From contig JAHJLI010000245.1 of the NCBI GenBank assembly GCA_018821785.1, positions 1 through 58,837 on the forward strand: 58,837 nucleotides of DNA, in the 5' to 3' direction. A program made the position numbers and the translations under genes. The notes beneath the pieces were generated by a model, which ran no database searches, had not been told where the DNA came from, and worked only from the letters and a program-made list of their open reading frames with translations. Below, one piece after another: positions 8,161 to 48,538 of the stretch (position 1 is its first letter; every line of letters starts with the position of its first letter). The DNA comes from Pseudomonadota bacterium (GTDB lineage: Bacteria; Desulfobacterota; Desulfobulbia; Desulfobulbales; Desulfocapsaceae).

Positions 8161-8164
8161 CGCC

Positions 8165-14085: not shown

Positions 14086-14120
14086 AAGGTTGTCTGCTTA
14101 CATCAAGCCGACAACCTTTT
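14086..14120 (+). terminator. Hairpin terminator after the FmdE gene, probably bidirectional
   Basis: AAGGTTGTC (14086-14094) and GACAACCTT (14110-14118) form a perfect 9-bp stem ending in a short T run. It lies 31 nt past the FmdE stop and overlaps the end of the small minus-strand gene, so it may serve both. Confidence 0.55.
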
Positions 14121-14271: not shown

Positions 14272-14295
14272 ATGTTTGTATAGTAATAAAAATAT

Positions 14296-14940: not shown

Positions 14941-15020
14941 GGAATAATCTGTCTATGTTCAAGAAGAGTGAGCGAGTATACCGGCAAGCCTGATTTTTCC
15001 CCCAAATGGGTTTGCTGCTG

Positions 15021-15347: not shown

Positions 15348-15370
15348 GGTTTTGAGCCCCTGCTCCATTG

Positions 15371-15438
15371 ATTTAGGAGCCGTTACGAAATAATATGGCC
15401 GTTTTTAACCATTTAGATGTGGCTCCTTATGCCGTTGG
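15371..15438 (-). repeat. 68-bp palindromic intergenic repeat, copy A
   Basis: Read on the minus strand, this 68-bp segment matches copy C (56241-56308) at 56 of 68 positions by hand alignment, without gaps. The shared core is AACGGCATAAGGAGCC at one end and TAACGGCTCCTAAAT at the other. The GGAGCC/GGCTCC arms are inverted repeats, so the element folds into a hairpin. It starts just upstream of the FTR-like gene. Confidence 0.75.
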
Positions 15439-15983
15439 GGGGATTTCATCGGCCACGTTATTTTTTAACAACGGCGTATTTGTAACTCATCAAAATTCAG
15501 TTAATATTAATGCGTCGGATTTGCAAGTTGTTCGTGGTATTTTCAAGGTTAAACATGACCATTTGCCTGGATTCACAACCGGAAGAGAAACTCATGTGTG
15601 TGGGGAATGTAGTGGACAACCGGAACATGCCCTGGATTTTGTGAAGGCACCTTGTTTCTCTTCATCCCCCCCTGTCACTGCTGAAACAAAGTTAAAGATC
15701 GGGTTTGAAAATTGTTGTGAACGAAGGAGATACCGGATAGGGTGAGGCTCAGCTTTGGGCCTGGAAAATGTTTTCCTCATGTGGCCCAAAAATTTTCTTT
15801 TAAAGGCCTTATTATTTGCTGGAAATAATTATAAACATCGCTGAATGTCAGGTGGTTGGTGCCGGAGTGAGCGCTGAAATATTGCTATTACTATCGGATT
15901 AAATATACACGTATGGTGATTGTTTTCCGGCGTTGGTACTCGACCGAGCGGATCACAGTGGAGCCTCAGGTGAAGGAGAAAGC
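15439..15983. other. Intergenic region with a hairpin, no convincing gene
   Basis: This stretch lies between divergent genes. It contains one strong hairpin: TTTGGGCC (15754-15761) pairs with GGCCCAAA (15783-15790), with an inner GGAAAA/TTTTCC pair, followed by a T-rich stretch. An open frame from 15395 to 15745 crosses the repeat and lacks protein-like character. The AT-rich DNA near 15800-15930 probably holds the promoter of the downstream DUF945 gene, but I cannot assign boxes with confidence. Confidence 0.4.
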
Positions 15984-17309
15984 ATGAAGAAGATTATTAT
16001 TGGCGTTGTGGTGATTCTCGGTATTGCCTTGCTCGCTGTACCATTTGGCAGCGGTCTGGTGATGGAGCGTATTGTACGGGAGGCACTTAGCAATCTCAAC
16101 GCGGTATATGCTAAGAGCGGCCACGATGTCAGCGCTGAGATTGTCCGCTATGACAGAGGATATTCCTCAACTGAGATTGAATGGAAAATAAAGTTTGGCA
16201 GGCTGAAAGCATTGTATGGGGTCGATGAGGTTATTTTTATCGATCGGGCCGAACATGGTATAAGCAGCATTGTCTCCAAAACTAGCCTGGAGAAAAACGG
16301 CTGGTACAAGGATTTTATCAATAATAAACTTGCCGGCAAGGATCCTCTGCATATTACCACAAACTATAAACTTGCCGGGGGGGTTGAGGTGACCACTGCC
16401 ATCGATACCTTTGCAATACAGGTCGAGAATAAGACCTTTGCGGTCAAGCCAGGAAAGGTCGTTGTCGACTGTGATAAGGAGTTTAAAAAATTCAACACTG
16501 AAGCCTCTTGGGAGGGTCTCGCGGTAGCTGAGGATATGTCGATTGGCGGGATATCAATGAAGTCTGTTTTAACTATGATATCACCCTATATTTGGGATGG
16601 GAATGTCTCCATGGTTATGCAAAACATGCAGATCACAGAAGGTGGTGAGGCTTTTGACCTGGCGAACCTGAAAGTCGAGTACTTTCTGAATTATGATAAA
16701 GAGCAGAAAAAGTTGTCGGCCAAGGCGGAATACGGAGTTGACAGTATCAATTTCGGACCGGATAAGATCACCAAAATTTTTGCACGAATCGGCATAAACG
16801 GTGTAGATGCCAAAGGCTACGAAGAATTCATGAAGTTGTATACCGCGACGGTGAGCGCAATCCTAGGAGATGTTACCGCCGCCAAGGATGATCCTGAGAA
16901 GATGAAACAAGTCCTCGAACAAAAGATGGCTATGGTCGGTTTTCAGATGGTGGCTGCCGGTGAGAAGCTATTAACCAAGGGTTTAGAGCTGAAAATTTCC
17001 GATATTCATGTTCAGTTGCCTGATGGCGAGATAACTGGTGATGTGGCGATCAGTCTGAAAAAAGATATGACTTTTTCACAGTTTATTCCTGTTGTCAATC
17101 AACCTGCGTTGGTGCTCGAAATAATTTCCCTGAAATCAAATGCCACTCTGCCGGAAAAACTGGTTGGCGATGCACCCATGTTGTTTACACCGGTATATCC
17201 TGGAATGCAGACCGGTCTCTTCGTGAAAAATGGCCAGGAAGCCCAGCATAAGGCTGAGACAAGAGACGGTAAGTTGTTTCTCAACGATAAGGAGTTGGTG
17301 TTGAAATAG
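15984..17309 (+). CDS. DUF945 (YdgA-family) protein
   Basis: A 441-aa protein that starts with an uncleaved signal anchor (MKKIIIGVVVILGIALLAV), followed by a long beta-rich domain. The N-terminal pattern of anchor, then FGSGLVMERIVREALSNLN, then a GYSSTEIEW segment resembles DUF945/YdgA proteins, which are attached to the inner membrane with a large periplasmic part and have no defined function. The start at 15984 has GAAGGAGA upstream; an in-frame start 51 nt earlier lacks such a site. It ends 4 nt before the convergent acyl-CoA synthetase gene. Confidence 0.8.
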   Translation: MKKIIIGVVVILGIALLAVPFGSGLVMERIVREALSNLNAVYAKSGHDVSAEIVRYDRGYSSTEIEWKIKFGRLKALYGVDEVIFIDRAEHGISSIVSKTSLEKNGWYKDFINNKLAGKDPLHITTNYKLAGGVEVTTAIDTFAIQVENKTFAVKPGKVVVDCDKEFKKFNTEASWEGLAVAEDMSIGGISMKSVLTMISPYIWDGNVSMVMQNMQITEGGEAFDLANLKVEYFLNYDKEQKKLSAKAEYGVDSINFGPDKITKIFARIGINGVDAKGYEEFMKLYTATVSAILGDVTAAKDDPEKMKQVLEQKMAMVGFQMVAAGEKLLTKGLELKISDIHVQLPDGEITGDVAISLKKDMTFSQFIPVVNQPALVLEIISLKSNATLPEKLVGDAPMLFTPVYPGMQTGLFVKNGQEAQHKAETRDGKLFLNDKELVLK

Positions 17310-17313
17310 ATTG

Positions 17314-19488
17314 TTACAGCGTTGCAACCTGAGACTCTGTTTCAGGTTTTTCAAGAATAAATCGGCAATCAGCCACCGTCACCCCATGGCCTTCGGGATG
17401 AACGAGCAAGGGATTGATATCAAGTTCTTTGATCTCCGGGTGGTCAAGGACCATTTCCGATAACCCCACTAGCATCTGTTCGATAGTAAGGATATCGGTC
17501 TTTGGCGCTCCACGGTATCCGGTCAGCAGTTTATAGCCCTTGATGCTGCGCACCATGTTCCGGGCGCCGTTGCGGGTGAGTGGGGCGAGCCGGAAGGCCA
17601 CATCCTGAAAAACCTCGACGAAAACCCCGCCGATTCCGAACATGATCAGCGGCCCGAATACAGGGTAGCGGCTCATCCCGAGAATGACTTCCAACCCCTT
17701 CGGGGCGAGGCGTTGGATGAGCACTCCTTCGATTACAGCCTTCGGATCGAAATTTGTTGCATTGGCTATAATGGTCTTGAAACCATTTTCCACCGCCGCC
17801 CGACTCTCCGGTCCGACCATTACCCCTCCGGCATCGGTCTTATGGATGATCTGTGGTGAGACGATCTTCATTACCACCGGATAACCCATTTGCTCAGCGG
17901 CATCCCCAGCCTCTTCGGCACTTTTTGCCAGCACCGTCGGCAGGATATTGAAGCCGTAACACTTGAGCAGTTCGGTGCCACCCAGTTCGCCGATATAGGT
18001 CTTCCCGGCAGCAAGTGCCTGGGCTATTATTTCTGCCGCCCGCTGCTTGTTATGGCTCATTTGAAATGGTGCCAGCCGTTGGCGGTTCAGCCACCGTGAG
18101 TAACGATACAGGGCGCCGAAACTCTTGGCCGCGCTTTCCGGAAAGCGATATACCGGTACACCGCTAGACTGGAGATGTTTGACCCCCGCCGATACATCGA
18201 TAATGCCCATGAAGCAGCAGAGAATGGGTTTATAGGAGTGGCGGGCGATGCGGACGATGGCCTCGGCGGTACCGATGGCGTTGGTCATGCTTTGCGGAGT
18301 GAGAATGACCAGCGCTCCGTCAACGCCTTCGTCCTTGATGACCGCCGACAGGGCGTTTTCATAACGATCCTGGGCGGCATCGCCGATGACGTCGACCGGA
18401 TTATTGACATTGGCAGTCATTGGCAGATGGCTTTTCAGCACTTCGATGGTGTCAGCGCTGAAGGTGGCCAGCTCAAGACCCGAAGAAACGGTCATGTCGG
18501 TGGCAACGATGCCCGGACCGCCGGCGTTGGTGACGATAGCCACCCGATTACCATGTGGTACCTTGCGGCGGATCTTGCCGGTGGCGCTTTCGTTTTTATA
18601 GGCAAAGGCGATACCGAAATCGAACAGCTCGTTGATCGAATCAACGCGGATGATACCGCTCTGGGCGAATATTGCATCGTACACCGCCTCACTGCCGGCA
18701 AGTGACCCGGTGTGGGAGGCGGCGGCACTGGCTCCGGCCAGGGTGCGTCCCGATTTGATGGCGAGAACCGGCGTCGGTCGTTCGCCACCGGTAATCTCCT
18801 TGACCTCCTGAATGAACTCCGGGCCCCGATGCAATTCCTCGATATAGAGCATGATGACCTCGGTCTCCGGATCGGCATGGAAATAGCGGAGCAGGTCCAG
18901 CTCATCGACATCGGCTTTATTGCCGATGGAGACAAATTTAGAAAAACCAAAATCCTTGTCGGCGGCAAAATCAAGTACTGCCGTGCACAGCGCGCCACTC
19001 TGGGAAATAAAAGAGATGTTGCCAGCGGCCGGCATTCGCGCCGAGAAGCTAGCATTGAGCCGCACCTCGGGTTTCGGGTTGATGACTCCCAGGCAGTTGG
19101 GTCCAACCACCCGCACTCCCGCCGCCCGGCACATGGTGGCAATCCGCTGTTCGATGGCCAATCCCGCGGGGCCGACCTCCCGGAAACCGGCGGAGACAAT
19201 GACCACCGCCTTTACCCCGTGGCCGATGGCGTTGGCGATGGCCGTCTCCACCTGTGACGGCGGCAGGATGATGATCGCCAGATCGACGGGGTCAGGGATG
19301 TCGCGGATATCGGGATAGGTGCGCACGCAGGCGATGGACCGGGCCCTGGGGTTGACGGGGTAGAGGGTGCCGGTGAAACCGCCTTTGAGAATATTGACGA
19401 AGATATCGTGACCAACCTTGCCAGGGGTGCTGGAAGCGCCGACCACTGCCACCGAGGACGGGTTAAAGAGTGCATCAAGACCTTGCAT
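17314..19488 (-). CDS. ADP-forming acetate/acyl-CoA synthetase (fused alpha-beta)
   Basis: A 724-aa enzyme that would interconvert acyl-CoA + ADP + Pi with acid + CoA + ATP. Domain order: CoA-binding Rossmann domain (about 1-120, SSVAVVGASSTPGKVG), succinyl-CoA-synthetase-like ligase domains (about 150-460), then an ATP-grasp domain (about 490-710) with GYPVVMKIVSP. The phosphorylated catalytic His lies in ASHTGSLAG near residue 257. In anaerobes this enzyme conserves energy from acyl-CoA as ATP. I chose 19488 because AAGG is positioned upstream, whereas the earlier ATG at 19521 has none. Confidence 0.92.
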   Translation of the reverse strand: MQGLDALFNPSSVAVVGASSTPGKVGHDIFVNILKGGFTGTLYPVNPRARSIACVRTYPDIRDIPDPVDLAIIILPPSQVETAIANAIGHGVKAVVIVSAGFREVGPAGLAIEQRIATMCRAAGVRVVGPNCLGVINPKPEVRLNASFSARMPAAGNISFISQSGALCTAVLDFAADKDFGFSKFVSIGNKADVDELDLLRYFHADPETEVIMLYIEELHRGPEFIQEVKEITGGERPTPVLAIKSGRTLAGASAAASHTGSLAGSEAVYDAIFAQSGIIRVDSINELFDFGIAFAYKNESATGKIRRKVPHGNRVAIVTNAGGPGIVATDMTVSSGLELATFSADTIEVLKSHLPMTANVNNPVDVIGDAAQDRYENALSAVIKDEGVDGALVILTPQSMTNAIGTAEAIVRIARHSYKPILCCFMGIIDVSAGVKHLQSSGVPVYRFPESAAKSFGALYRYSRWLNRQRLAPFQMSHNKQRAAEIIAQALAAGKTYIGELGGTELLKCYGFNILPTVLAKSAEEAGDAAEQMGYPVVMKIVSPQIIHKTDAGGVMVGPESRAAVENGFKTIIANATNFDPKAVIEGVLIQRLAPKGLEVILGMSRYPVFGPLIMFGIGGVFVEVFQDVAFRLAPLTRNGARNMVRSIKGYKLLTGYRGAPKTDILTIEQMLVGLSEMVLDHPEIKELDINPLLVHPEGHGVTVADCRFILEKPETESQVATL

Positions 19489-19803
19489 AATGGGGACCTT
19501 GTTATGGTTTATTATCTGCATCCGGCAGAAATATTTTTAGCAACGGGGTATCTGTTGGTTGAGGGCTTATTACTTTAGCATGGTTGCCGGAGTCCTGCAT
19601 CCACCTTAATGATCATTTTTTTTCTTCTCGCCTCAACCGATGAAAAAAATGATAGTAATTCTCAATTGTCTTGGTATGTTAGGTTTAAATCTGTTTTGGT
19701 CGGAGCATCCTTCTTGGTCGGTTACTCTGACAGTTGGGGACGTGTTGATTTGTAAGCCTTTTTGTTTATGAGTGACAATGAGTTTTCGAGGAGGGTGAAC
19801 ATT
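19489..19803. other. Intergenic region between divergent genes, with AT-rich hairpin
   Basis: No gene seen. ATCATTTTTTTTC (19612-19624) can pair with GAAAAAAATGAT (19642-19653), giving an A/T-rich stem. Promoters for both flanking genes must lie here, but I see no unambiguous -35/-10 pair. A GGAGG site just before 19804 belongs to the downstream gene. Confidence 0.35.
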
Positions 19804-21990
19804 ATGGAAAACACCATAGGAGAACAGCATCGCTGGCGGTTCTGCAGGCTTGGTGGCTTTGATCAGGTTCGTCTTGAGACGGCAGAAGATATCAGGCATC
19901 TTGGCGAACTGGATCAAAAACTCTGGGCCGCACTCAGTTGTCCGGTCAGCGGTTTGGAATTTGATTCAAGAACTCTTGCAATGCTCGACAGCGACCAGGA
20001 CGGCCGGGTCCGCGTTCAGGAAATTCTCGCCGCGACCAAGTGGATCAGTTCCGTCCTGGTGACGATGGATACCTTCATGGCCGGGGCCGATCACATACCG
20101 CTTCAAGCTATTGACGGCAGCCGCGCCGAAGGACAGCAGTTGATAGCCTCGGCCAGGCAACTCCTTTCCTACCTCGGCAAGGCCGAGGCCCAAACCGTAT
20201 CCATTGAAGATGTCAGTTGCACCGATACCCTGCTGCATGCCTCGAAATTCAACGGTGACGGAATCATTGCCATTCATGTTACCGAAGATGAGCACCTGCA
20301 AAAATTTATCACCGAGATCATGGCCTGTGTCGGCAGCGAACAGGACCGCAGTGGCCTGCCCGGTATTTCCCAAGGTCAGCTTGATTCCTTTTTTGCGTCG
20401 GCTCAGCAGTATGCTGAGTGGTGTGAACAGACCAATGGAGATGCTGCTATTCTGCCGTTTGGTGACCAAACAGGTGATGCCTTCGCGATTTTTTCCCGTC
20501 TTAGAAATAAGGTCGATGACTATTTCATGCGTTGCGGACTGGCCGCTTTTGACGTCAAGGCCGAGGCACCCCTGAACCCCTCACTCACCAACTATGAGGC
20601 ACTGGCATCCCAGGATCTGGCAGTAGCAACGGTCGAGGTAGAACGATTTCCTCTCGCCCACATCGAAGCAGGCCGACCGTTGCCCTTGCGCGAAGGCATC
20701 AATCCGGCCTGGGGCCCGACGCTGGAGAGTCTCATAGCCCTGGTGGTAACTCCATTGTTTGGTGAGAATACCCATCTCGAAGCGGCCCAGTGGCAACAGA
20801 TCAAACGGATCTTCATCCCCTACGAAGCCTGGCAAAACAACAAGGCCGGGGCTGAGGTGGAAAGCCTCGGCTTTGAGCGGATTGAGGTAATCCTCCAGGG
20901 ACAGGGCAAGGCCCTGCTTGAGGGTCTTATCCGTCAGGATCTACAACTGGCTGAGGAGGTCGCTGCCATTGACAAGGTCGTCAGGCTCGTCTATTTCAAC
21001 CGCGATCTCTATAGGCTGTTGAATAACTTTGTAGCTTTTCGTGATTTTTACGTTCAGGATCGCAAGGCCGTTTTTCAGGCCGGAACCTTGTATATCGATG
21101 GTCGGGCCTGTGAACTGTGCATCAAGGTGGCGAGCGTCGATAGCCACAGTCCCCTGGCTAATCTCAGCCGCACCTACCTCACCTATTGTGAGTGCAGGCG
21201 GAGGGACAGCGACCAGCGCATGTTCATTGCCGCAGCCTTTACCGGTGGCGACTCCGACAATCTCATGCTTGGCCGCAACGGTGTGTTTTACGATAGCCAG
21301 GGCATTGACTGGGATGCGACAGTTGTCAAAATCATTGACCATCCGATCAGTGTTTCTCAGGCTTTTTTGGCACCTTATAAACGCGTTGGGCGGATGATCA
21401 ATGAACAGATTCAAAAATTCGCCGAGGCCAAGGCTAAGGCGGTGGACAGCAAGGCCGGCGCAGGGATAAAAGCTGCCGCTGCCAAACCTGCAGCACCATT
21501 ACCCTTTGATGTCGCCAAGTTTGCCGGTATCTTTGCAGCTTTTGGCCTCGCTCTCGGAGCTATTGGTACCGCCCTCGCCACCATCTTCGGAGTATTTCTC
21601 GCTCTGCCCATGTGGCAGATGCCCCTGGCGTTTGGGGGAATCATCCTCGCCATATCTGCGCCATCGATGCTCATCGCTTTCTTGAAACTACGGCAGCGCA
21701 ATCTCGGTCCGATTCTCGACGCCAACGGTTGGGCGGTCAACACCAAGGCCCGCATCAACATCCCCTTTGGTTCGACCTTGACCAAGATGGCAATGTTGCC
21801 GAAGGGTTCGGAACGAACCCTTGTTGACCCCTTCGCCGAGAAAAAAACCCCGTGGAAACGCTGGGTCTTTCTCCTCGTTCTTCTCATGGCCATAGGATTT
21901 GCCTGGAACAAAGGTTATATAGCAGAGTGGAGCAAGCAGCTGAAAGCGCCTGTCAGCGAGCAGAAGGCCGCTGCTCCGGCTATGAAATAG
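19804..21990 (+). CDS. Large EF-hand-containing membrane protein of unknown function
   Basis: A 728-aa protein. An EF-hand-like calcium loop (DSDQDGRVRVQE) lies near residue 62 after a FRLGGFDQV-type N-terminal segment. The middle is a long soluble region, and the C-terminus has hydrophobic segments near 580-630 (FAAFGLALGAIGTALATIF and following) and near 690-710 (WVFLLVLLMAIGFAW). A low-complexity Ala/Lys linker (AKAKAVDSKAGAGIKAAAAK) precedes the membrane part. The start has GGAGG nine bases upstream. I do not recognise the family. The soluble part is probably a large domain tethered to the inner membrane, with calcium as a possible signal. Confidence 0.8.
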   Translation: MENTIGEQHRWRFCRLGGFDQVRLETAEDIRHLGELDQKLWAALSCPVSGLEFDSRTLAMLDSDQDGRVRVQEILAATKWISSVLVTMDTFMAGADHIPLQAIDGSRAEGQQLIASARQLLSYLGKAEAQTVSIEDVSCTDTLLHASKFNGDGIIAIHVTEDEHLQKFITEIMACVGSEQDRSGLPGISQGQLDSFFASAQQYAEWCEQTNGDAAILPFGDQTGDAFAIFSRLRNKVDDYFMRCGLAAFDVKAEAPLNPSLTNYEALASQDLAVATVEVERFPLAHIEAGRPLPLREGINPAWGPTLESLIALVVTPLFGENTHLEAAQWQQIKRIFIPYEAWQNNKAGAEVESLGFERIEVILQGQGKALLEGLIRQDLQLAEEVAAIDKVVRLVYFNRDLYRLLNNFVAFRDFYVQDRKAVFQAGTLYIDGRACELCIKVASVDSHSPLANLSRTYLTYCECRRRDSDQRMFIAAAFTGGDSDNLMLGRNGVFYDSQGIDWDATVVKIIDHPISVSQAFLAPYKRVGRMINEQIQKFAEAKAKAVDSKAGAGIKAAAAKPAAPLPFDVAKFAGIFAAFGLALGAIGTALATIFGVFLALPMWQMPLAFGGIILAISAPSMLIAFLKLRQRNLGPILDANGWAVNTKARINIPFGSTLTKMAMLPKGSERTLVDPFAEKKTPWKRWVFLLVLLMAIGFAWNKGYIAEWSKQLKAPVSEQKAAAPAMK

Positions 21991-38629: not shown

Positions 38630-39355
38630 ATGAACACTACTTCAATAGCCCTCAGTGAGAGGATCATTGTCGCTCTCGATGTAGACACACCGGAGCAAGC
38701 CAAGGCCCTGGTTAAAAAATGTGAATCGCACGTAAGTTTTTATAAAGTCGGCCTGCAGCTCTTTATGGCGAGCTGGTTTGAGACGGTCGACTGGCTGATC
38801 GATCGCGGCCACAAAGTCATGCTCGACCTGAAGTTTTTTGACATTCCCGAAACCGTCAAGCAGGCGGTGGAACAGGTCAATAGTCGGGGAGTGACCTTTG
38901 CCACCATCCACGGTAACGATCCGATCATCAGGGCGGCCGTATCCGCCCGAGGTGACCTGCAACTCCTCGCGGTAACTGTTCTCACCAGCTTTGGTGAAGA
39001 GGACATGCGGGCCATGGGCATGACCGGGACAGTTGCTGATCTCGTTTATTTTCGGGCCAAAAGGGCACTGGAACTGGGTTGTGACGGGGTGGTTTCGTCG
39101 GGGCTTGAGGCGGAGAAATTGCGCAGAGACCTCGGTGAAAAACTGTTGATCGTCACCCCAGGCATCCGACCGGGGGCAAATACCTGCGATCAGGGCGATG
39201 ATCAGCAGCGCATCGTCACCGCCGGCAGGGCCATAGCGGGAGGTGCCGACCATGTGGTGGTCGGGCGCCCCATCACCAGGGCCATCGACCCGATAAAGGT
39301 TATTGAGCAGATGCAGAGCGACATCAGCTGCCTAGGTCGGCAGGGGAATCGTTAA
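38630..39355 (+). CDS. pyrF: Orotidine 5'-phosphate decarboxylase
   Basis: A 241-aa TIM-barrel enzyme that converts OMP to UMP in pyrimidine synthesis. N-terminal IIVALDVDTPEQA, then FYKVGLQLFMA, and the catalytic segment VMLDLKFFDIPETVKQAVE with the Asp-Lys-x-x-Asp group. The C-terminal GADHVVVGRPITRAIDP binds phosphate. Its length is usual. An AAGGA site lies upstream. A short hairpin (38549-38577) overlaps the end of the preceding anti-sigma gene. Confidence 0.95.
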   Translation: MNTTSIALSERIIVALDVDTPEQAKALVKKCESHVSFYKVGLQLFMASWFETVDWLIDRGHKVMLDLKFFDIPETVKQAVEQVNSRGVTFATIHGNDPIIRAAVSARGDLQLLAVTVLTSFGEEDMRAMGMTGTVADLVYFRAKRALELGCDGVVSSGLEAEKLRRDLGEKLLIVTPGIRPGANTCDQGDDQQRIVTAGRAIAGGADHVVVGRPITRAIDPIKVIEQMQSDISCLGRQGNR

Positions 39356-39501: not shown

Positions 39502-39690
39502 ATGGAAATTAATACCAGTAATTTTGCGGCAAGCGCTTCGAGTCTCAACAAGTCCGCGGTAGGTCAGGATATTTTGGCGAGAACCCTGGCAAAAACTGAG
39601 GAAGGGGAGCAGAAAAGGCAAGTGGAAGAACCAAAGGCCCCTGAAGGCCCCAAGAGTTCGAAACAGGGTCGGATTGACTTTTATGCTTGA
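39502..39690 (+). CDS. Small protein of unknown function (62 aa)
   Basis: A 62-aa protein with an excellent GAGGAG site before the ATG. The N-terminus is Ser/Asn/Ala-rich, the middle is charged (KTEEGEQKRQVEEPKAPEGP), and it ends in GRIDFYA. I do not recognise a family with certainty; short proteins linked to motility with a similar composition exist, but this is a loose resemblance. It lies 146 nt after pyrF and may be transcribed alone. Confidence 0.6.
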   Translation: MEINTSNFAASASSLNKSAVGQDILARTLAKTEEGEQKRQVEEPKAPEGPKSSKQGRIDFYA

Positions 39691-39934: not shown

Positions 39935-40363
39935 ATGAAAATCGAGGAAGTTCCACAGGATAAAGGCATGATCGGCGACCACGGTCATGAGGTTTGCTAT
40001 GCCGTCGGCGATAATGGCCGTTACACCTTGTCACCCAGTCTTGGCTGGGAAGCAAAAAATGTAGTGAATGACCAGGCATGGGCGGTCATTGTCGAAGAAA
40101 CAAGGCAAATGCATCGACTGGTGCAAAGCGGCAAGCTCAGTCCAATCGCCTATTACCAGGCGAAAAATCAGATGGATATCGCTCTCCTGGCATGCTATGT
40201 CGATATGGCTAAGTGGCGGGTGAAAAGGCATCGCAGGCCGGAGATTTTTCGACGATTGTCCGAGCGGATCCTGCAAAGATACGCTACAATTTTCGGGGTT
40301 TCACCGGCAGAACTGAAAACCATCCCAGAAATCTTTTCTCCCGAATGTATTCGCCGGCGCTAA
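39935..40363 (+). CDS. Unknown 142-aa protein opening the BtrH cluster
   Basis: A soluble, mostly helical 142-aa protein without signal or membrane segment. Visible landmarks are EVCYAVGDNGRYTLSPSLGWEAKN at the N-terminus, QAWAVIVEETRQMHRLVQSGKLSPIAYYQ in the middle, and a basic region with WRVKRHRRPEIFRRL followed by ERILQRYATIFGVSPAELK. I do not know a named family. The stop overlaps the BtrH-like start by one base (TAATG), which ties it to that gene. No good ribosome-binding site; translation may rely on an upstream leader. Confidence 0.72.
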   Translation: MKIEEVPQDKGMIGDHGHEVCYAVGDNGRYTLSPSLGWEAKNVVNDQAWAVIVEETRQMHRLVQSGKLSPIAYYQAKNQMDIALLACYVDMAKWRVKRHRRPEIFRRLSERILQRYATIFGVSPAELKTIPEIFSPECIRRR

Positions 40364-41382
40364 TGGACTCTTATATTGCTTTTCCTCACAGCCAGTCGGC
40401 ACACTGCGAAAGCGGGGTGACCGCCAACCTTCTCCGTTTTCACAACATTGAATGTTCTGAGGCGCTTGCTTTCGGCATCGGAGAGGGGTTGTTCTTCGGC
40501 TATCTCCCTTTTATCAAGATCAATAACCTGCCTCTCACCACCTTTCGCGGTGCCGTAGGAAGCATCTTCAGCAAGGTCAATAAACGCCTTGGCGTTACGG
40601 TACGGCGACGCAAATTCCGCTCTGAGTCAGAAGCCATGGACGAACTTGACGCCAAACTTCTGCAGGGTATTCCCGTCGGCTGTCAGACTGGCGCTTTCTG
40701 GTTGCCCTACTTCCCGCCGGCCTTTCGTTTTCATTTCAACATGCACAATCTGGTGGTCATCGGCCGCGACGGCGATGAATACCTGATTAGTGATCCGGTC
40801 TTTGAGAAGGTTGTACGTTGCAAAAGAGATGACCTGCAGCGTGCCCGGTTCGCCAGAGGGGCTCTGGCACCGAAAGGGGCAATGTACTACCTCGAAGCCG
40901 TGCCGGAAAATCCGGACATGGGGGGGGCCGTTTTGCAGGGTCTAACCAAGGCATGCAGAACGATGCTCCGCACTCCGCTGCCTTTTTTGGGGGTGCGAGG
41001 TATAAAGTTTCTTGCCGACCGGTTGGAGAAATGGCCGAAGAAATTGGGTGAAGAACAGGCCCTTCTCTATCTCGGGCAGCTCATCAGGATGCAGGAGGAG
41101 ATCGGCACCGGCGGAGGCGGCTTCCGCTTTATGTATGCGGCATTTTTGCAGGAAGCGGCCGAGATTCTTGGGCTGCCACAACTCTTTCAGTTGTCTGAGA
41201 GAATGACCCTGGTCGGCGATACCTGGCGCCTCTTTGCCGTTTCAGGGGCGAGGATGTGCAAAGGGAGGGCCAAAGACGGCGATACCTATAATGAACTTGC
41301 CGGTATCCTGCGGCAATGCGGGCAAAGCGAGCGGGCAATCTATGGGGATATCCTCGAGCTTCTGCAACGATCGCAACGGTGA
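40363..41382 (+). CDS. BtrH-type acyltransferase-like protein
   Basis: A 339-aa protein whose N-terminal 150 residues resemble the butirosin biosynthesis protein H N-terminal domain (AHCESGVTANLLRFHNIECSE, then EGLFFGYLP). The domain has a papain/C39-like look with Cys near residue 13, His in FHFNMHNLVVIGRDG, and Asp in ISDPVF, which would be the catalytic triad. BtrH in butirosin synthesis moves an acyl group from an acyl carrier protein onto an amine. The C-terminal about 150 residues are helical and unassigned. I chose ATG 40363 because it overlaps the upstream stop and starts right at the domain. Confidence 0.78.
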   Translation: MDSYIAFPHSQSAHCESGVTANLLRFHNIECSEALAFGIGEGLFFGYLPFIKINNLPLTTFRGAVGSIFSKVNKRLGVTVRRRKFRSESEAMDELDAKLLQGIPVGCQTGAFWLPYFPPAFRFHFNMHNLVVIGRDGDEYLISDPVFEKVVRCKRDDLQRARFARGALAPKGAMYYLEAVPENPDMGGAVLQGLTKACRTMLRTPLPFLGVRGIKFLADRLEKWPKKLGEEQALLYLGQLIRMQEEIGTGGGGFRFMYAAFLQEAAEILGLPQLFQLSERMTLVGDTWRLFAVSGARMCKGRAKDGDTYNELAGILRQCGQSERAIYGDILELLQRSQR

Positions 41383-41394
41383 GGAGGTGGTGCC

Positions 41395-42150
41395 ATGATT
41401 GATAACGTTCCGCTCCTTGTCGGCAAGGATCTCTTCCTTTCCTATTTGGGCAGTGATGTCCCGGCAATAAACGGTATATCCTTTTCCCTGTGTCGTGGCG
41501 AATTATGCGGGTTGATCGGCCCAAACGGAGCCGGGAAAACAACCTTAATTTCGGTTTTTACCACACTTCTTCGCCCGCAGCGTGGATCTCTGCATATCGC
41601 CGGGATCAATGCCATAGGTAATCCGGCCGGTGTACGGAGCAAGATCGGTTTTGTACCTCAGGATCTGGCTCTCTATGATCGCCTTACTGGATTGGAAAAT
41701 ATAGATTATTTTGGCAGCATGTACGATCTTGATCGGAAGTTGCTCAGGGAAAAGGCCAAAAATTATCTTGAGATGTTCGGTCTCTACGACAAGCGGGATC
41801 GCCAGGTGGCCACCTATTCCGGCGGAATGAAGCGACGAATCAATCTGATTATCGGTATCATTCATGATCCCGAGCTTTTGTTTCTTGATGAGCCGACGGT
41901 GGGCATCGATGCTCAGTCGCGCCATATGATCCTGGAAAAACTGGCCGCCCTCAACAGTGAGCAGATGGCTATGCTCTATACCTCCCACTACCTTGAGGAG
42001 GTCCAGTCTTTATGTCGCCGGGTGGTGATAATAGATGAGGGTCGAATCATTGCTGAAGATACACCCAAAAACCTTATCGCCCAGGCCGAAGGATGCGGCA
42101 GCCTCGCCGAAATATTTCTCCAGAAGACCGGCGAACATCTTCGGGATTGA
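41395..42150 (+). CDS. ABC exporter ATP-binding protein
   Basis: A 251-aa ABC-2-type ATPase: Walker A GPNGAGKTT (about residue 43), Q-loop GFVPQDLALYD, signature YSGGMKRRINL, Walker B LLFLDEPTVGID, and His-loop TSHYLEE. The GMKRR signature form is typical of drug/polyketide exporter ATPases. An excellent GAGGAGG site precedes the ATG. It starts 12 nt after the BtrH-like gene and ends 6 nt before its permease. Confidence 0.93.
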   Translation: MIDNVPLLVGKDLFLSYLGSDVPAINGISFSLCRGELCGLIGPNGAGKTTLISVFTTLLRPQRGSLHIAGINAIGNPAGVRSKIGFVPQDLALYDRLTGLENIDYFGSMYDLDRKLLREKAKNYLEMFGLYDKRDRQVATYSGGMKRRINLIIGIIHDPELLFLDEPTVGIDAQSRHMILEKLAALNSEQMAMLYTSHYLEEVQSLCRRVVIIDEGRIIAEDTPKNLIAQAEGCGSLAEIFLQKTGEHLRD

Positions 42151-42156
42151 CGGAAT

Positions 42157-43482
42157 ATGACCGGAAAGAAACTCTGTATTTCAATCGTCAAGGAATTGCT
42201 CCTGCTGGTTCGTGATCGTGCCGGGCTGGCGCTTCTTTTCGTCATGCCGGCCTTTCTGGTCATCGTCATTACCCTCATCCAGGATAAAGTGACGACTACC
42301 ATCGTTGATGTCCTCTTTGTCGATGTTGACCGGGGTGCGGTAGGAGCTGAAATTCGCAGCCTTTTCGATCGAATCGATACCATCCGTCTCATTGAAACCT
42401 TAGAAGGTGAGCAATTGTCGACGGATAAGGCCAAGGCCCTCGTGGCTGCTTCCAAATTTCAATTTGCGGTCATCCTGCCGCAAGGGCTCAGTTCTGCGAC
42501 GACCGAAGGGGCGCGGTTGACGGCCATCAAAAATCTCTTTCCAGATCGTCAAGCATCTGCTGTTCCTACGGTGCCGGAGATCCTTGTATGGTTTGACCCA
42601 ACGGTGCACGGCAGTTTTCGGGCGGCGGTGCGGTCGGCTCTTAATCAGGTGGTCATGGGGGTGCAGACTCGGCTGTTGGTCGAAAAAAGTCTGGTCCTAC
42701 TCCCTGAAAAGATCAGTGCAGACCTGCCGGCGGCAATGCGCCAGGCTGTGTCTTTTCCCGATTTGAGCGCCAAGGTTTTGCTGCCGCAACTGTTCCAGGA
42801 CACCCATCTTATTCCAGTGCGGGAACATTTCAGCACAACGATGGGCTTTATCAAACAGCCCACTGCCGTGCAGCAGAATGTTCCCGCCTGGGCGATTTTC
42901 GGCATTTTCTTTATTGTTGTGCCGCTGGCAGGTTCTTTTATCAAGGAAAGAGAGTCGGGAACCCTCATGCGGTTGAAGGTTCTTCCGGTGAGCTATTTTA
43001 CCGTTATTTCTGGAAAAATAATCGCCTATATGGTTGTCTGCCTGATCCAGTTTGTAGTTATTGTCATGGCCGGCATGTTTGTCCTGCCTGCCTTTGGCCT
43101 TGCCGCCTTTGAGCCGGGAAGTCAGCCGTTGCTGTTTGCAATCATGATGATAAGCGTTATCGCTGCTGCCTGCGGCTACGGTATCCTTCTTGGGACGATT
43201 GGCCGGACCTACGAACAGATTGCTGTCTTCGGTCCGGTGTCGATAGTGATCGGAGCGGCCTTGGGCGGTATCATGGTGCCGATTTATGCCTTGCCTGATT
43301 TCATGCGGCCTGTCTGCTTGCTTTCCCCCCTTTATTGGGGGCAGAGCGGGTTTTACGATCTTCTCCTTCGTGGTGGTGACCTGCGATCGATCCTTCCTGA
43401 AGCCTCAGCCCTTCTGATGTTTGGTCTTGCTTGTACGGTGGCGGCTTACCTGTTTTCTGTCGGCAAAAAAAGACATGCCTGA
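42157..43482 (+). CDS. ABC-2-type transporter permease
   Basis: A 441-aa inner-membrane permease with an N-terminal helix (LALLFVMPAFLVIVITLI), a large periplasmic loop of about 220 residues, then five helices in the C-terminal half, including FIKERESGTLMRLKVLP typical of ABC-2 permeases. The layout matches YhgE/ABC-2 exporters of lipids, polyketides or antibiotics. It pairs with the preceding ATPase as a probable exporter of the cluster product. Confidence 0.9.
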   Translation: MTGKKLCISIVKELLLLVRDRAGLALLFVMPAFLVIVITLIQDKVTTTIVDVLFVDVDRGAVGAEIRSLFDRIDTIRLIETLEGEQLSTDKAKALVAASKFQFAVILPQGLSSATTEGARLTAIKNLFPDRQASAVPTVPEILVWFDPTVHGSFRAAVRSALNQVVMGVQTRLLVEKSLVLLPEKISADLPAAMRQAVSFPDLSAKVLLPQLFQDTHLIPVREHFSTTMGFIKQPTAVQQNVPAWAIFGIFFIVVPLAGSFIKERESGTLMRLKVLPVSYFTVISGKIIAYMVVCLIQFVVIVMAGMFVLPAFGLAAFEPGSQPLLFAIMMISVIAAACGYGILLGTIGRTYEQIAVFGPVSIVIGAALGGIMVPIYALPDFMRPVCLLSPLYWGQSGFYDLLLRGGDLRSILPEASALLMFGLACTVAAYLFSVGKKRHA

Positions 43483-43674
43483 AAAGCCTTCCTGCCCCTC
43501 CCGCAGTGTCCTGAATAATATTCTTGAAAAACAGTGCCGGGAATGTTTTGTTGCGACCTTTGATGTGGCGGTTTTGACCGTTTTTTCCTCGAACACTGTC
43601 GGATTGTCATCAACGACACCAATCAACATGTTTGAATCTTGAAACAGAATTATCAAAAAAGTGTTTTCTTGCCT

Positions 43675-44982
43675 ATGCAGATAGTACTCATCAATCCGCC
43701 CAATTGTGGACGTTCCATTCCGGAGGAAGAGTATGGCATTACCTCGCTGAAGATGATCTTCCGGGGCGAGCCGTTGGCCCTGGAGGTTCTTGCCGGAAAT
43801 CTGCCCGGCCATACGGTACGGATTGTCGATCTGAAAGCCGATCCGACCGGCCTTGATGCGCTGCTGTCTGAGGGGACGCGACCGGATATCGTCGGCTTCA
43901 CCGCCGTTACCTGCGAGGCAAACACGGTTATCAAACTTGCTGAAAAGATCAAAGAGGCATATGACACGCCTCCGATCATCGTGGTCGGCGGCCATCACGC
44001 TTCCTCCGATCCGGGCTATTTTCACAGAGCTGCAATCGATTACGTGATTGTCGGCTTGGGTAAACTGTCCTTTCGGCTACTGCTGGAAGCCCTTGCAGAG
44101 GGCACTCTTCCCGCAGATATCCCCGGGGTACTCAGGGTACGGCCGGGTGGTCCACTGGTTCCGATTCGGCGAAAATATGGTTTCGAGGATCTGGTAGACA
44201 GTCAGCCTCCCCGTTACGACCTGGTGCAAGCCCATCGTGATACATACGTCATGAGCGGGGTCGGCGGCAAGGTAGGTTTTGTTGCCACTGCTTTCGGCTG
44301 CACCCATTGCTGCTCTTTCTGTTCCATTCCGGCTATGACCGGAGGACGTTATCTTAGCCACAGTGTCGAGGCAATCATTCGTGACATCGGGCTGTTATCG
44401 GACATTCCCCTTGTTCGCTTTGTCGACGCCAATACCTTTGGTGACCCGGTAACTGCACGACTCCTGGCTAAAAAAATTCTGCATTTAGGGATACAAAAAA
44501 AAATCGTAGCCGATGTCCGGGCCGATACTGTCGTTGCCAATCCCGAGCTTATGCGTCTGTGGCATGAGGCGGGGCTGGTTTCAGTTGTCATCGGCTTTGA
44601 AGAGATAGATGATGCCCGTCTTGAGCGGATGAACAAACGCAGCAGCCTGGACAAGAATATCGCGGCACTGCACATCCTGGCCGAAATTGGTATACGGGTG
44701 ATCGGCGATTTCATCATCTCTCCTGATTACGACCATGCCGATTTCGAGAGGCTCAGCCGCTTTATCGACAGTTCCCCCATCGCCTTGCCGATCCCGTCTA
44801 TCCTCACTCCGATTCCGGGGACTCCCCTGCACCGACAGTTGGCAGGGGAACTGGAAATTACCGATCTTGATTATTATACTTTTTCCAACGCGGTACTACC
44901 GACGAGGCTCGCCAAGAAAGAGTTCTACACACTGTATTCTGACCTTATGAAGCATCTGCATCAACACCTAAAGAAGAGCTGA
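43675..44982 (+). CDS. B12-binding-domain radical SAM enzyme
   Basis: A 435-aa protein. The N-terminal about 150 residues form a cobalamin-binding Rossmann domain (QIVLINPPNCGRS, later IIVVGGHHAS); no DxHxxG motif is obvious, as in many B12-radical SAM enzymes. The radical SAM domain has CTHCCSFC at about residue 207, giving the CxxxCxxC ligands, then RFVDANTFGD. These enzymes often methylate unactivated carbons or join lipids. A longer form would start at TTG 43639; I favour ATG 43675 as the normal family start, though no ribosome-binding site is visible. The stop lies 2 nt before the KAS III gene. Confidence 0.85.
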   Translation: MQIVLINPPNCGRSIPEEEYGITSLKMIFRGEPLALEVLAGNLPGHTVRIVDLKADPTGLDALLSEGTRPDIVGFTAVTCEANTVIKLAEKIKEAYDTPPIIVVGGHHASSDPGYFHRAAIDYVIVGLGKLSFRLLLEALAEGTLPADIPGVLRVRPGGPLVPIRRKYGFEDLVDSQPPRYDLVQAHRDTYVMSGVGGKVGFVATAFGCTHCCSFCSIPAMTGGRYLSHSVEAIIRDIGLLSDIPLVRFVDANTFGDPVTARLLAKKILHLGIQKKIVADVRADTVVANPELMRLWHEAGLVSVVIGFEEIDDARLERMNKRSSLDKNIAALHILAEIGIRVIGDFIISPDYDHADFERLSRFIDSSPIALPIPSILTPIPGTPLHRQLAGELEITDLDYYTFSNAVLPTRLAKKEFYTLYSDLMKHLHQHLKKS

Positions 44983-44984
44983 GC

Positions 44985-46142
44985 ATGGAAATCTATATCA
45001 ACGACCTTGCCTCGTTTCTCCCCAATGCGTCGGTGGACAACGATCACATAGAAGATATACTGGGCCGGGTAGGTGACATCCCGTCGCGAACCAAGCGGCG
45101 GATACTCTCCAACAACAAGATCAACACCAGGCATTACGCCCTTGATCCTGCAACCGGCCAGGGGACACATACCAACGCTGAACTCACCGCCGAGGCGGTA
45201 CGGTTGCTGCGGCCGACCGCTGATTTTACTCTCGCCACCATCGAATGTCTGTGCTGCGGCACTTCGAGCCCTGATCTCCTCATGCCGGGACACGGGGTAA
45301 TGGTTGCCGGGGAATTACAGCTGCCGCCCTGTGATGTGGTGACCACGGCGGGCATCTGTGTGGCCGGGATGACTGCCCTGAAATACGCCTGCATGAATGT
45401 CGCTTCCGGAACCGTCGCTAATGCAGTGGCGACCGGCTCTGAACTGGCCTCATCCTTTATGAAGGCAGGTTTCTTTTCTCCAGCAGCGGACCTCGGAGCC
45501 GATCTGAAAAAAAAACCGGTGTTGGGTTTTGATGCAGATTTTCTTCGGTGGATGCTCTCCGATGGGGCCGGGGCGGCGTATGTTTCTGGGCAAAAAAATC
45601 GGATTGGCCTGTGTTACCGAGTGGAATGGATTGAAAACCGTTCTTTCGCTGGGGAACTGGCGACCTGCATGTACGCCGGCGGCAAGAAAATGAGCGACGG
45701 CAGGGTGCGGGGCTGGCGGCAGTTTGACGGCAGCCTGGAGGCAGCGAAAAACAACTCCTTTGCTGTCAGGCAGGATGTGAAGCTCCTCGACGAACAAATC
45801 GTCACCACCGCCATGGCCCGGGCGCTGCCGGAAATAGCCGGCAAACGTGGCATACGGCCTGCTGATATCCAATGGTATCTGCCGCATTATTCCTCAGCCT
45901 ATTTTCGCGATAAATTTTACCAGGGCATGAAGGAAGCCGGTTTTGAAATACCATATGAAAAGTGGTTTACCAACCTTCCCGAGGTTGGCAATATCGGCAG
46001 CGCCTCCATCTATCTGCTGATGGAGGGCTTAATGCAGTCAGGGAGGTTGAAAGACGGCGATAAAGTACTGTGTTTCATCCCCGAATCCGGCCGTTTTTCG
46101 CACTGCTTCATGTTGCTTACTGTTGTGGCGGGCAAAGAATAA
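44985..46142 (+). CDS. Beta-ketoacyl-ACP synthase III-like enzyme
   Basis: A 385-aa thiolase-fold protein. The catalytic Cys is in TTAGICVAGMTALKYA (about residue 124), the His in YLPHYSSAYF (about 300), and the Asn in VGNIGSASIYLL (about 342), so the FabH Cys-His-Asn triad is complete. It is about 60 residues longer than housekeeping FabH, as often seen in KAS III relatives from secondary-metabolite clusters. It would condense an acyl group with malonyl-ACP or transfer an acyl group. It ends the six-gene cluster; the next gene is convergent. Confidence 0.87.
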   Translation: MEIYINDLASFLPNASVDNDHIEDILGRVGDIPSRTKRRILSNNKINTRHYALDPATGQGTHTNAELTAEAVRLLRPTADFTLATIECLCCGTSSPDLLMPGHGVMVAGELQLPPCDVVTTAGICVAGMTALKYACMNVASGTVANAVATGSELASSFMKAGFFSPAADLGADLKKKPVLGFDADFLRWMLSDGAGAAYVSGQKNRIGLCYRVEWIENRSFAGELATCMYAGGKKMSDGRVRGWRQFDGSLEAAKNNSFAVRQDVKLLDEQIVTTAMARALPEIAGKRGIRPADIQWYLPHYSSAYFRDKFYQGMKEAGFEIPYEKWFTNLPEVGNIGSASIYLLMEGLMQSGRLKDGDKVLCFIPESGRFSHCFMLLTVVAGKE

Positions 46143-46189: not shown

Positions 46190-48490
46190 TCATTTCACTA
46201 CAAAGCGCACTTCCGGGGTAAGGAGGGGAAGATCACCTTTTCCCTGCCAGACTCGGGCCTGGGCCTGATGGCTGCCTCGGGTCAGAGGCCACATGAAATG
46301 GCGGTCATTCTCTCCGGTAATTCCTGCGAGCTGGCCGTCGACACTCCATTCCACTCGTGTTGCTGCGTGGCCGCCGGATATCTTCATGGGGTAGGCTTCG
46401 ATGCTGTCCGGGATATGTGGATCCATCGCCATTTGCAGGTTGGGGGCGGGTTGGATGATATGCACTGTAGTTCCGATTTTCGCTTGCGCGGCTCCGGCAA
46501 CCGTGACTTTGCTGTCCGCTGCCCCGTGCTGGGTGCAGACGGTTAGTGGCATGGTGTCCAGCATGAATTTTTCGACAATGGACTGGCAAAAAGGACCGGC
46601 CAGTTGTCCGGTATTGCTGCAGATTCTAGCCACGCCTAGGCGCTGGCTGGTCGACAGCGGCTGGGCTTCTTCAAAACGGTTCAGTTCGGAGAAGACTGAC
46701 CGGAGAATGAGGCCCGGACCGGTGATGCCGGTGAGGCCGCCGGTCGAATGGCCATCGAGGTTGCCCATCCATATGCCTACGGTATAACGGTGGTTGAAGC
46801 CGACCGCCCAGGCATCCCGATGGTCATTTGAGGTTCCGGTCTTGACTGCGGTCTGCACCGGAAATCTGAGGATATTGCCGCTGCCGAATTCGAGGCGACG
46901 GGCTTGTGGGTCGGAGAGGATATCGGCGATCAGCGATGCCGCCTCGTGGCTGAAGAGGCGATGGCGGGTTGGGCCATAATTCTTGCCGCTCAGGGTAAAA
47001 CGAAGGGGGTGAACTACCCCGCCCCTGGCCAGGATGGTATAGCCCTGCACCAGCTCGAGCAGTGTTACCTCGCCATTGCCGAGGGCTAGGCCTTCGCCGT
47101 AATGGCCGGCTGTTCGATCGAGACCGGCTATTCCCATGTTGTGCAGGAGATCCAGAAAATCTTCGACCCCAGTGAACTGGATGGTCCGGATGGCCGGTAT
47201 GTTGAGGGAGTTGCCGAGGGCCTCTCGCAAACGCAGAGGACCGTAATGCTTGCGACTGTAATTACGAAAGGGATGCATGCCGTCGCCGACCGGCCTTGCC
47301 AGCGGCGAATCGTCGATGATTGTAGCAGGTGTCCAGCCCCGGTCGAGGGCCAGACCGTAAAGGAAGGGTTTGAGGGTTGAGCCCGGCTGCCTCGGGGAGG
47401 TCACACAATCTATCCAGCCGCCTGAGTTTTCATTTTTTATCACGGAACTATTGACCCAGACAAGGACTTCATCGGTCTGGTGATCGACGGCAAGGGCCGC
47501 TCCGTTATGCACATCGAGATGCTTTAGATCATGCATGTGCTGGTCAAGAATATCCTGAACCTGTCCCTGGAGGACACTGTCGAGGGTGGTGAGAACCCTG
47601 GGTGAACCGGTTGTACTCCAGATTTCGCTTGTCGGGAGGCTCTGCTGGGGGAACTCATGGTGTGTCAGCTGCCGGATAAAATGGCCGGCTTCGACCGGCA
47701 GATGCAGCTCGGTCAGGTGCAGGTTGGTAAGGGTCAGTTCTTCCCTCTCGTTTGCGCCAAGCTTGCCCTCGCGGATGAGAAAATCGCCAAGCCGCTGCAC
47801 CGATTTTGTCAGATCTCCCGCGCCCTGTTTCAGGCTGAGTCGTCCCGGGGCGCGGACCAGCACAGCCAGGGTCAGCGTCTCAGCCGCGGTGAGGGTGCCG
47901 GGATCCCGGTCGAAATGCAGCCGCGCGGCCTGCAGGACACCGCGACGCTGCCTGCTATAGGGCACCTGGTTGAGGTAGAATTCGAAGATTTCAGCTTTGC
48001 TGAAATGCTCTTCAAGACTTGCCGCCTCGAATCCCTCAAGCCAGCGGGACCAGAGGGTTCGAGGCCGGGGATGGAGAATGCGCACCACCTGTTCGGTGAT
48101 GGTGCTCGCCCCGCGTACTCCGCGCAAGGCCAGGATATTCTGCATAAGGGCATGAGCCCTCGCTAGCCAGTCGACGCCGTGATGCCGGTAAAATCGCCGG
48201 TCTTCCGAGGCGATAAAGGCCTCCTGCAGCAGCGTTGGAATTTCATGCAGCGGCAGCCAGTCGTGGACATTCCAGGGGTTATCAAAAGTCACCGACAGGG
48301 GAATGCCGTTTCGGTCGAGAAACTGGTGTTTGCGAAATGTAAGATCCTGGGGGAGAAGAGTCGCCTGGAAGGGACGAAGCTCCTCCCAGGTCCTTTTGAT
48401 AAGCCACCCCGTGGCTGCAATAGAGAGGAGAAAAAGCAGCAGGCAGCAGGAGAGTACTGGCCTCTTTGTGAAAATCCGTCTTCCCCGCAT
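46190..48490 (-). CDS. pbpC: Penicillin-binding protein 1C
   Basis: An approximately 766-aa bifunctional peptidoglycan synthase. The N-terminal anchor (VLSCCLLLFLLSIAATGWLI) is followed by a GT51 transglycosylase domain (EDRRFYRHHGVDW with the catalytic Glu; GASTITEQVVR). The transpeptidase domain has SxxK in PGSTLKPFLYG and KTG in VKTGTSNDHRDAW. A C-terminal BiPBP_C domain completes the PBP1C layout. The start is uncertain (48490 or GTG 48514); GAGGAGG lies 12 bases before 48490. It sits 48 nt downstream of the alpha-2-macroglobulin gene, the standard partner of pbpC. Confidence 0.93.
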   Translation of the reverse strand: MRGRRIFTKRPVLSCCLLLFLLSIAATGWLIKRTWEELRPFQATLLPQDLTFRKHQFLDRNGIPLSVTFDNPWNVHDWLPLHEIPTLLQEAFIASEDRRFYRHHGVDWLARAHALMQNILALRGVRGASTITEQVVRILHPRPRTLWSRWLEGFEAASLEEHFSKAEIFEFYLNQVPYSRQRRGVLQAARLHFDRDPGTLTAAETLTLAVLVRAPGRLSLKQGAGDLTKSVQRLGDFLIREGKLGANEREELTLTNLHLTELHLPVEAGHFIRQLTHHEFPQQSLPTSEIWSTTGSPRVLTTLDSVLQGQVQDILDQHMHDLKHLDVHNGAALAVDHQTDEVLVWVNSSVIKNENSGGWIDCVTSPRQPGSTLKPFLYGLALDRGWTPATIIDDSPLARPVGDGMHPFRNYSRKHYGPLRLREALGNSLNIPAIRTIQFTGVEDFLDLLHNMGIAGLDRTAGHYGEGLALGNGEVTLLELVQGYTILARGGVVHPLRFTLSGKNYGPTRHRLFSHEAASLIADILSDPQARRLEFGSGNILRFPVQTAVKTGTSNDHRDAWAVGFNHRYTVGIWMGNLDGHSTGGLTGITGPGLILRSVFSELNRFEEAQPLSTSQRLGVARICSNTGQLAGPFCQSIVEKFMLDTMPLTVCTQHGAADSKVTVAGAAQAKIGTTVHIIQPAPNLQMAMDPHIPDSIEAYPMKISGGHAATRVEWSVDGQLAGITGENDRHFMWPLTRGSHQAQARVWQGKGDLPLLTPEVRFVVK

Positions 48491-48538
48491 CGGTCCCGTT
48501 AACCTCCTCACCACAACCTCTTGCCTGCCTTCGCCTGG

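Follow-up and report, generated by a model that had tools for sequence, protein, structure and literature searches.

The dar-type gene cluster

Contig JAHJLI010000245.1 of assembly GCA_018821785.1, from a Pseudomonadota bacterium whose genome taxonomy places it in the Desulfobacterota (family Desulfocapsaceae), was analysed over positions 1 to 58,837, a stretch referred to here as the window. Six plus-strand genes at 39935-46142 (Table 1) form what is, judging from the sequence, almost certainly a dialkylresorcinol-type (dar) biosynthesis and export cluster. Dialkylresorcinols are small ring-bearing lipids, and some bacterial pigments contain them as one of their components. Directly before the gene for the ketosynthase DarB, where darA, the gene for the dialkylresorcinol (DAR) aromatase, normally stands, this cluster has a gene for a radical S-adenosylmethionine (SAM) enzyme with a B12-binding domain. 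A preliminary description of the window had listed the radical SAM gene and missed its occupation of the darA slot, which is the undescribed feature of the locus.

The assignment to the dar class rests on matches of three genes over curated NCBIfam cut-offs, on the ATP-binding cassette (ABC) type 2 transporter pair and on the correspondence with the dar genes of Azoarcus. Gene 1, previously taken for an unknown 142-residue protein, belongs to the DarG family (153 bits against a cut-off of 70), gene 2 scores 463 bits against 300 for DarH, and gene 6 reaches 530 bits against 450 for StlD/DarB. All Pfam matches in Table 1 exceed their cut-offs, including those to BtrH_N (162 bits) and DUF4872 (195 bits) of gene 2, whose scan began at 40342, in frame with its ATG at 40363. 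With the families of genes 1, 2 and 6 named in NCBIfam, the label "cluster of unknown product" was rejected; what survives of the earlier reading is that a conserved set of genes, one of them of acyltransferase type, would make and export a lipid-like product. Two narrower models fall short, the DarB model NF053539 (of type "exception"; 451 bits against 550) and the flexirubin DarG equivalog NF053545 (148 bits against 170), and the cluster is therefore a divergent member of its class. A generic beta-ketoacyl synthase III (KAS III) identity for gene 6 was rejected, two FabH-type models scoring only 53 and 70 bits against 530 for StlD/DarB. Its Cys-His-Asn triad is intact, as had been reported earlier: in an alignment of 113 DarB rows, the columns of Cys125, His301 and Asn336 are each conserved to 98% or more.

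The dar (arcuflavin) cluster of Azoarcus sp. BH72 runs, in Table 1 of its description, from darA (DAR-aromatase), darB (DAR-cyclase), darD (hypothetical), darE (BtrH-like) and darF (ABC ATPase) to darG and darH (prevent-host-death and PilT types), darI (permease), darC (acyl carrier protein, ACP) and darJ (ketosynthase) (PMC3949708). The window cluster, ordered darG-darH-ATPase-permease-radical SAM-darB, holds counterparts of darD, darE, darF, darI and darB; by position gene 1 corresponds to darD, and DarH corresponds to the BtrH-like darE. Azoarcus darA, darC and darJ have no counterpart in the window cluster, and the B12-domain radical SAM gene holds the place of darA. Despite their names, Azoarcus darG and darH differ from NCBIfam DarG and DarH, which are equated here with darD and darE by position and by the BtrH domain. 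The flexirubin dar genes of Chitinophaga pinensis, like those of Azoarcus, include a DarB-type ketosynthase gene with an adjoining partner gene.

A gene-neighbourhood comparison, proposed in the preliminary description as a check on its cluster, found the genes conserved together. All six occur in identical order in three other loci (L002, L003 and L014). Within the stretches fetched around darB, the 33 loci with the radical SAM gene beside it contain DarH in 25, DarG in 22, the ATPase in 24 and the permease in 24, and the 71 loci with DarA beside it contain DarH in 62, DarG in 57, the ATPase in 48 and the permease in 44, both sets of counts including loci cut by contig ends.

Table 1. Genes of the dar-type cluster in the window
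Gene	Product	Position	Strand	Supporting match
1	DarG-family protein, 142 residues	39935..40363	+	NCBIfam NF053536
2	DarH, BtrH-related acyltransferase	40363..41382	+	NCBIfam NF053550; Pfam BtrH_N and DUF4872
3	ABC transporter ATP-binding subunit	41395..42150	+	Pfam ABC_tran, 104 bits
4	ABC-2 type permease	42157..43482	+	Pfam ABC2_membrane_3, 105 bits
5	B12-binding-domain radical SAM enzyme, candidate DAR aromatase replacement in the darA slot	43675..44982	+	Pfam B12-binding and Radical_SAM
6	StlD/DarB-family beta-ketosynthase	44985..46142	+	NCBIfam NF005293; Pfam ACP_syn_III_C

The partner of darB in related genomes

Two surveys establish which gene accompanies darB. The first covered 395 sampled genomes of the phylum, scoring the best four candidates per genome for DarB and for the radical SAM enzyme and the best five for DarA; in the 32 genomes with DarB over the cut-off, all DarA and radical SAM candidates were scored. 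The second was a scan of a genome-contig collection with the window DarB, of which the best 80 of 95 relatives were kept. The surveys share one genome or more: L021 and L116 (G376) have identical DarB and radical SAM proteins and contigs of equal length (55,042), so that the 33 radical SAM rows used below comprise 32 different ones.

In the phylum, darB is present in 33 of 395 genomes, namely the 32 over the cut-off and G300, in which it is truncated by a contig end; full-length StlD/DarB matches of 103-139 bits in G352, G331, G184 and G102 were excluded from the count. The partner is DarA in 14 of these genomes and the radical SAM orthologue in 19, with both in none and neither in none. DarA stands beside darB as a full gene in 12 of the 14, as a contig-end fragment in G046, and in G300, while every one of the 19 phylum genomes with the radical SAM orthologue has it directly 5' of darB. 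The group has a sharp boundary: orthologues score 633-771 bits, and the protein ranked next in the 395 genomes reaches 323. Full DarA occurs in 13 of the 395 genomes at 303-415 bits, the next best match being 87 bits, and to these the G046 fragment is added. One DarA genome (G220) carries a 258-bit radical SAM paralogue on a different contig.

The second survey gives the same exclusion. Among the best 80 of 95 loci, DarA is the partner in 62, the radical SAM gene in 14 (L001-L004, L012-L017, L019-L021 and L077, in each directly before darB), neither in 4 and both in none. In L027 and L035, two of the 62, DarA lies about 0.9 and 1.3 kilobases from darB, and in L042 it is a contig-edge fragment; six DarA assignments (L025, L027, L035, L036, L042 and L144) derive from tblastn or from contig-edge fragments. 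Fisher tests, which ignore relatedness, yield p values of 7e-24 for co-occurrence of the radical SAM enzyme with DarB and 1e-9 for its exclusion of DarA.

An assembly error was rejected as the source of the pairing, the radical SAM-darB pair recurring in the single-contig genomes G195 and G325. In three further genomes (G030, G229 and G250; loci L129, L131 and L132), the fetched stretch holds the pair only, with no DarG, DarH, ATPase or permease. This suggests that the two genes make up the working unit, possibly a minimal one. At L017, positions 11275-12601, a second darB is preceded by a short match to the radical SAM C-terminus, a partial duplication or decay.

The history of the slot was traced on a quick maximum-likelihood DarB tree of 113 rows (75 with DarA, 33 with the radical SAM gene and 5 with neither), with L115 (G300) excluded for its truncated DarB. 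At least four changes of partner are needed on this tree, and its starred branches force three changes for the radical SAM label. Constraining the radical-SAM-paired DarBs to a single clade costs 101 log-likelihood units and is rejected by the approximately unbiased test (p 6.05e-5). Partners of both kinds occur most closely together in a 14-row clade (support 97), which unites the window group and L012, all with the radical SAM gene, with L005, L006, L007, L009, L010 and L011, which have DarA, and L008, which lies at a contig edge. Pairwise distances of the radical SAM enzyme correlate with those of DarB across 33 loci (r 0.92), as do those of DarA across 68 loci (r 0.86); in neither case did any of 2000 permutations give so high a value. 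Together with the tree, these correlations indicate that each partner travels with its DarB and that the slot changed hands a few times rather than many. A search for DarB residues that track the type of partner left a single column past a loose filter (window A253), which is unconvincing.

The radical SAM enzyme

Gene 5 has the architecture of class 1 B12-dependent radical SAM enzymes, an N-terminal B12-binding Rossmann domain (49 bits against a Pfam cut-off of 32.1) and a radical SAM core (57 bits) with a CX3CX2C motif. It reaches no NCBIfam equivalog cut-off. The closest model by score, a comparison of scores and not of residues, is that of the B12 radical SAM enzyme HpnR, and an identity as this hopanoid C-3 methylase was rejected at 175 bits against a cut-off of 650. 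Cys209, Cys213 and Cys216 are invariant in 33 of 33 orthologue rows and in 8 paralogues sampled from the phylum, and the segment G105, G106, H108 and A109 is likewise kept in all of both groups. Cys80 is invariant in the 33 orthologue rows, whereas the 8 paralogues have Val, Ile or Ala at this position; Cys11 is kept in 32 of the 33.

A structure model built from 13 sequences has a mean predicted local distance difference test (pLDDT) score of 78.8 and a predicted template modelling (pTM) score of 0.82, with parts of residues 12-33 poor. Foldseek ranks AprD4 first (E 7.4e-18; template modelling (TM) score 0.73, by query length), with TsrM on a par and OxsB and MgmA following closely, and the first seven matches lie within E 7e-18 to 3e-16. 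By sequence, the enzyme matches MgmA, TokK, TsrM, AprD4 and OxsB. BchE, OxsB and AprD4, which do not methylate and have a B12-type Rossmann domain, share the domain architecture of the window enzyme; AprD4 and OxsB are only 18-20% identical to it over the fold match, and the substrates of all three are unrelated.

A HMMER alignment places Cys80 opposite Trp76 of TokK. The loop under the cobalt presents Asn186 in OxsB, Arg69 in TsrM and Trp76 in TokK, as set out in section 5 of a review that also mentions HgcA as thought to have a cysteine lower ligand (PMC13331322). By alignment, Cys80 of the window enzyme would lie under the cobalt, unlike the Asn, Arg and Trp of OxsB, TsrM and TokK.

DarA and its absence from the genome

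DarA and the radical SAM enzyme are unrelated proteins, although DarA too sits before darB and is strictly paired with it. The sole DarA scanned, that of L005, has no Pfam or NCBIfam match, and DarA is identified here by its place before darB and by synteny with the Azoarcus table. Its N-terminus weakly matches a trp-repressor-binding-type protein (E 0.001), a member of a flavodoxin-like family.

A DarA alignment searched against the window's whole genome (94% complete) gave matches of 69 bits on contig C170 and 17 bits on contig C72, and none in the window. The C170 protein (L081) and 19 other matches form a flavodoxin-like family of about 230 residues, distant from DarA (56-87 bits) and found with and without darB. 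This family occurs both in genomes with a full DarA (G357 and G339) and in genomes without darB over the cut-off (for example G145, G059 and G312). A DarA hidden elsewhere in the genome was rejected because the 69-bit protein belongs to this family. In a plasmid search, one DarA matched three Streptomyces sequences (NZ_CP109562.1, NZ_CP108465.1 and NZ_CP108315.1) at about 32% identity, where the underlying features are a hypothetical protein and a KAS III C-terminal-domain protein.

Mutants of Pseudomonas chlororaphis in darA make no product (PMC6403133), so that a cluster lacking DarA must either have a substitute or yield a different compound. Heterologous expression of darA and darB from Chitinophaga pinensis is described as yielding a dialkylresorcinol (PMC3992019).

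What the radical SAM enzyme might do

From its family, DarB would join two fatty-acid-derived acyl chains and close a 2,5-dialkylcyclohexane-1,3-dione; cyclohexanediones are placed before resorcinols in the pathway (PMC4414361). We propose that the radical SAM enzyme acts on this DarB product in the stead of DarA, abstracting a hydrogen from the dione ring and passing an electron on, which would give the resorcinol without the flavodoxin-like protein. BchE is a B12 radical SAM enzyme that oxidises rather than methylates, and does so without oxygen (PMC13142503). The two claims together, a cluster of the dar type and a B12-domain radical SAM enzyme that has taken over the reaction of its DarA, have a probability of about 0.5. 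The catalytic part, conversion of cyclohexanedione to resorcinol by the radical SAM enzyme, has about even odds. The fuller version, in which an oxygen-independent cobalamin radical SAM aromatase is a non-orthologous replacement of DarA, exchanged several times in the same slot and with Cys80 under the cobalt, is offered more tentatively.

Several observations weigh against a replacement of DarA. Mutual exclusion would also be expected if the product of the radical SAM enzyme cannot aromatise. The number of independent swaps is small, only three being forced. A DarA tree places the proteins of L005-L007 and L009-L011 together in a single group (support 92), so DarA need have come or stayed only once in the 14-row clade; with so few swaps and these DarAs in one group, the Fisher p values overstate the evidence. 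DarB can also occur without a ring-finishing partner nearby, as in the 4 of 80 loci with neither, of which L008 lies at a contig edge and L018, L040 and L069 are not edge-cut (L069 keeps DarG). Other Desulfobacterales do have DarA (L005-L007, L010 from a Desulfatitalea strain, and L011), so anaerobic life alone does not force the swap, and a simple adaptation to anoxia was rejected on this ground.

The main alternative, which we consider rather unlikely, is a dar-type cluster in which the radical SAM enzyme is a C-methyltransferase acting on an unactivated carbon of the cyclohexanedione ring or of an alkyl chain. A methyl on a ring carbon would block aromatisation and thereby explain the absence of DarA, and the exclusive presence of one gene or the other is compatible with this. 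B12 radical SAM enzymes of known function are described as predominantly methylases (PMC13142503), which speaks for methylation and against an aromatase, and the matches of the window enzyme include HpnR and the solved methylases MgmA, TokK and TsrM. Side-chain methylation, however, would be compatible with DarA, yet no examined locus has both genes, and the radical SAM gene stands in the DarA slot and co-varies with DarB. Cys80 in place of the Trp and Arg of TokK and TsrM (PMC13331322) hints, weakly, at another cobalt chemistry.

Two further explanations have less in their favour. The enzyme might make no use of cobalamin, its AprD4-like Rossmann domain serving only as a scaffold for a radical dehydration or dehydrogenation of an earlier ring intermediate. 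AprD4, the best match to the modelled fold, is not known to bind cobalamin, which would weigh against cobalamin use and against our proposal. Set against this are the B12-binding domain score, the G105-A109 segment kept in orthologues and paralogues alike, the close E values of the first seven fold matches and the poor modelling of parts of 12-33; this explanation appears improbable. Still less probable is a decayed or repurposed dar cluster that makes only cyclohexanediones and in which the radical SAM gene is unrelated and merely co-transcribed. Cyclohexanediones can themselves be signals, according to one account (PMC4414361), and L018, L040 and L069 show darB with neither partner gene nearby. 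An orthologue beside darB in 19 of 19 genomes and the co-evolution of the two proteins argue otherwise, as do G030, G229 and G250, where, within the stretches fetched, the pair stands alone.

Accessory genes and the end product

In the proposed pathway, DarH, together with DarG, would probably attach an acyl group, plausibly an aryl-polyene chain supplied by genes on another contig, and the ABC-2 pair would move the product through the membrane. The role of DarG may be that of a regulator rather than an enzyme: the C-terminal half of its structure model (pLDDT 87) has a predicted fold like a Cro/C1-type helix-turn-helix. Foldseek returned no match to this model at E 0.001 or below, the best being E 4.5e-3, and its weak matches include NGO0477 and Cro/C1-type DNA-binding proteins such as SinR.

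Contig C66 of the same genome bears an aryl-polyene-like locus. It encodes a PF13723 (Ketoacyl-synt_2) ketosynthase (40.8 bits against a cut-off of 25) that is cut by the contig end, an ACP-like protein, an AMP-ligase, further ketosynthases, acyltransferases and more radical SAM genes. PF13723 also exceeds its cut-off in 26 of 32 DarB genomes and is under it or absent in G030, G229 and G250. Because of the C66 locus and this distribution, a flexirubin-like end product, an aryl polyene that DarH would join to the ring, is plausible. The window cluster itself has no second ketosynthase and, in line with the preliminary description, no ACP; the further claim that it must borrow the fatty-acid ACP is not established, given the ACP-like protein and ketosynthases on C66 and an ACP-like gene beside the permease in many relatives.

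Within the C66 stretch examined (L145, positions 1-20000), the radical SAM genes comprise a second B12-type gene of this genome at 3465-4790, one of SPASM type at 12073-13107 and two small ones at 13999-15054 and 15062-16060 whose Pfam matches are under cut-off; a FakA/DegV-like fusion lies at 6129-7883. Homologues of several L145 genes are found near darB in L019-L021 and L077.

Layout and surroundings of the cluster

Coordinates and spacing of the six genes agree with the sequence, as described earlier. The TAA of gene 1 overlaps the ATG of gene 2 at 40363, after which 12 nucleotides separate gene 2 from the ATPase gene, 6 the ATPase from the permease gene, 192 the permease gene from the radical SAM ATG at 43675, and 2 the radical SAM from the ketosynthase gene. 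The radical SAM gene has an alternative in-frame TTG at 43639. A 55-codon open frame at 43475-43642, read by eye, occupies most of the 192-nucleotide gap and overlaps the end of the permease gene; it is probably no gene, since the same gap is much shorter or absent in L002 and L003.

A pyrF-like gene (38630-39355) flanks the cluster on one side and a penicillin-binding-protein gene on the opposite strand (46190-48514) on the other. Between pyrF and the cluster, an open frame of 62 residues at 39502-39690 has no Pfam match. Rfam and transfer RNA scans of the window found nothing.

Implications

Among the open-licence literature matches listed, judged by title and the start of the abstract, none links DarB or dialkylresorcinols to a radical SAM enzyme; those containing both "dialkylresorcinol" and "radical SAM" concern BrtB and CylK. 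Nor do the open-licence matches listed describe flexirubin-like lipids in sulfate-reducing and related bacteria, lipids to which the present finding points. If the radical SAM enzyme does finish the ring, the dialkylresorcinol pathway would have a second, radical-based version of this step. The enzyme would then stand for a family of B12-domain radical SAM proteins that is small and has clear limits (19 of 395 sampled genomes), and for which the neighbouring enzyme allows a guess at the substrate, an advantage seldom available in the superfamily.

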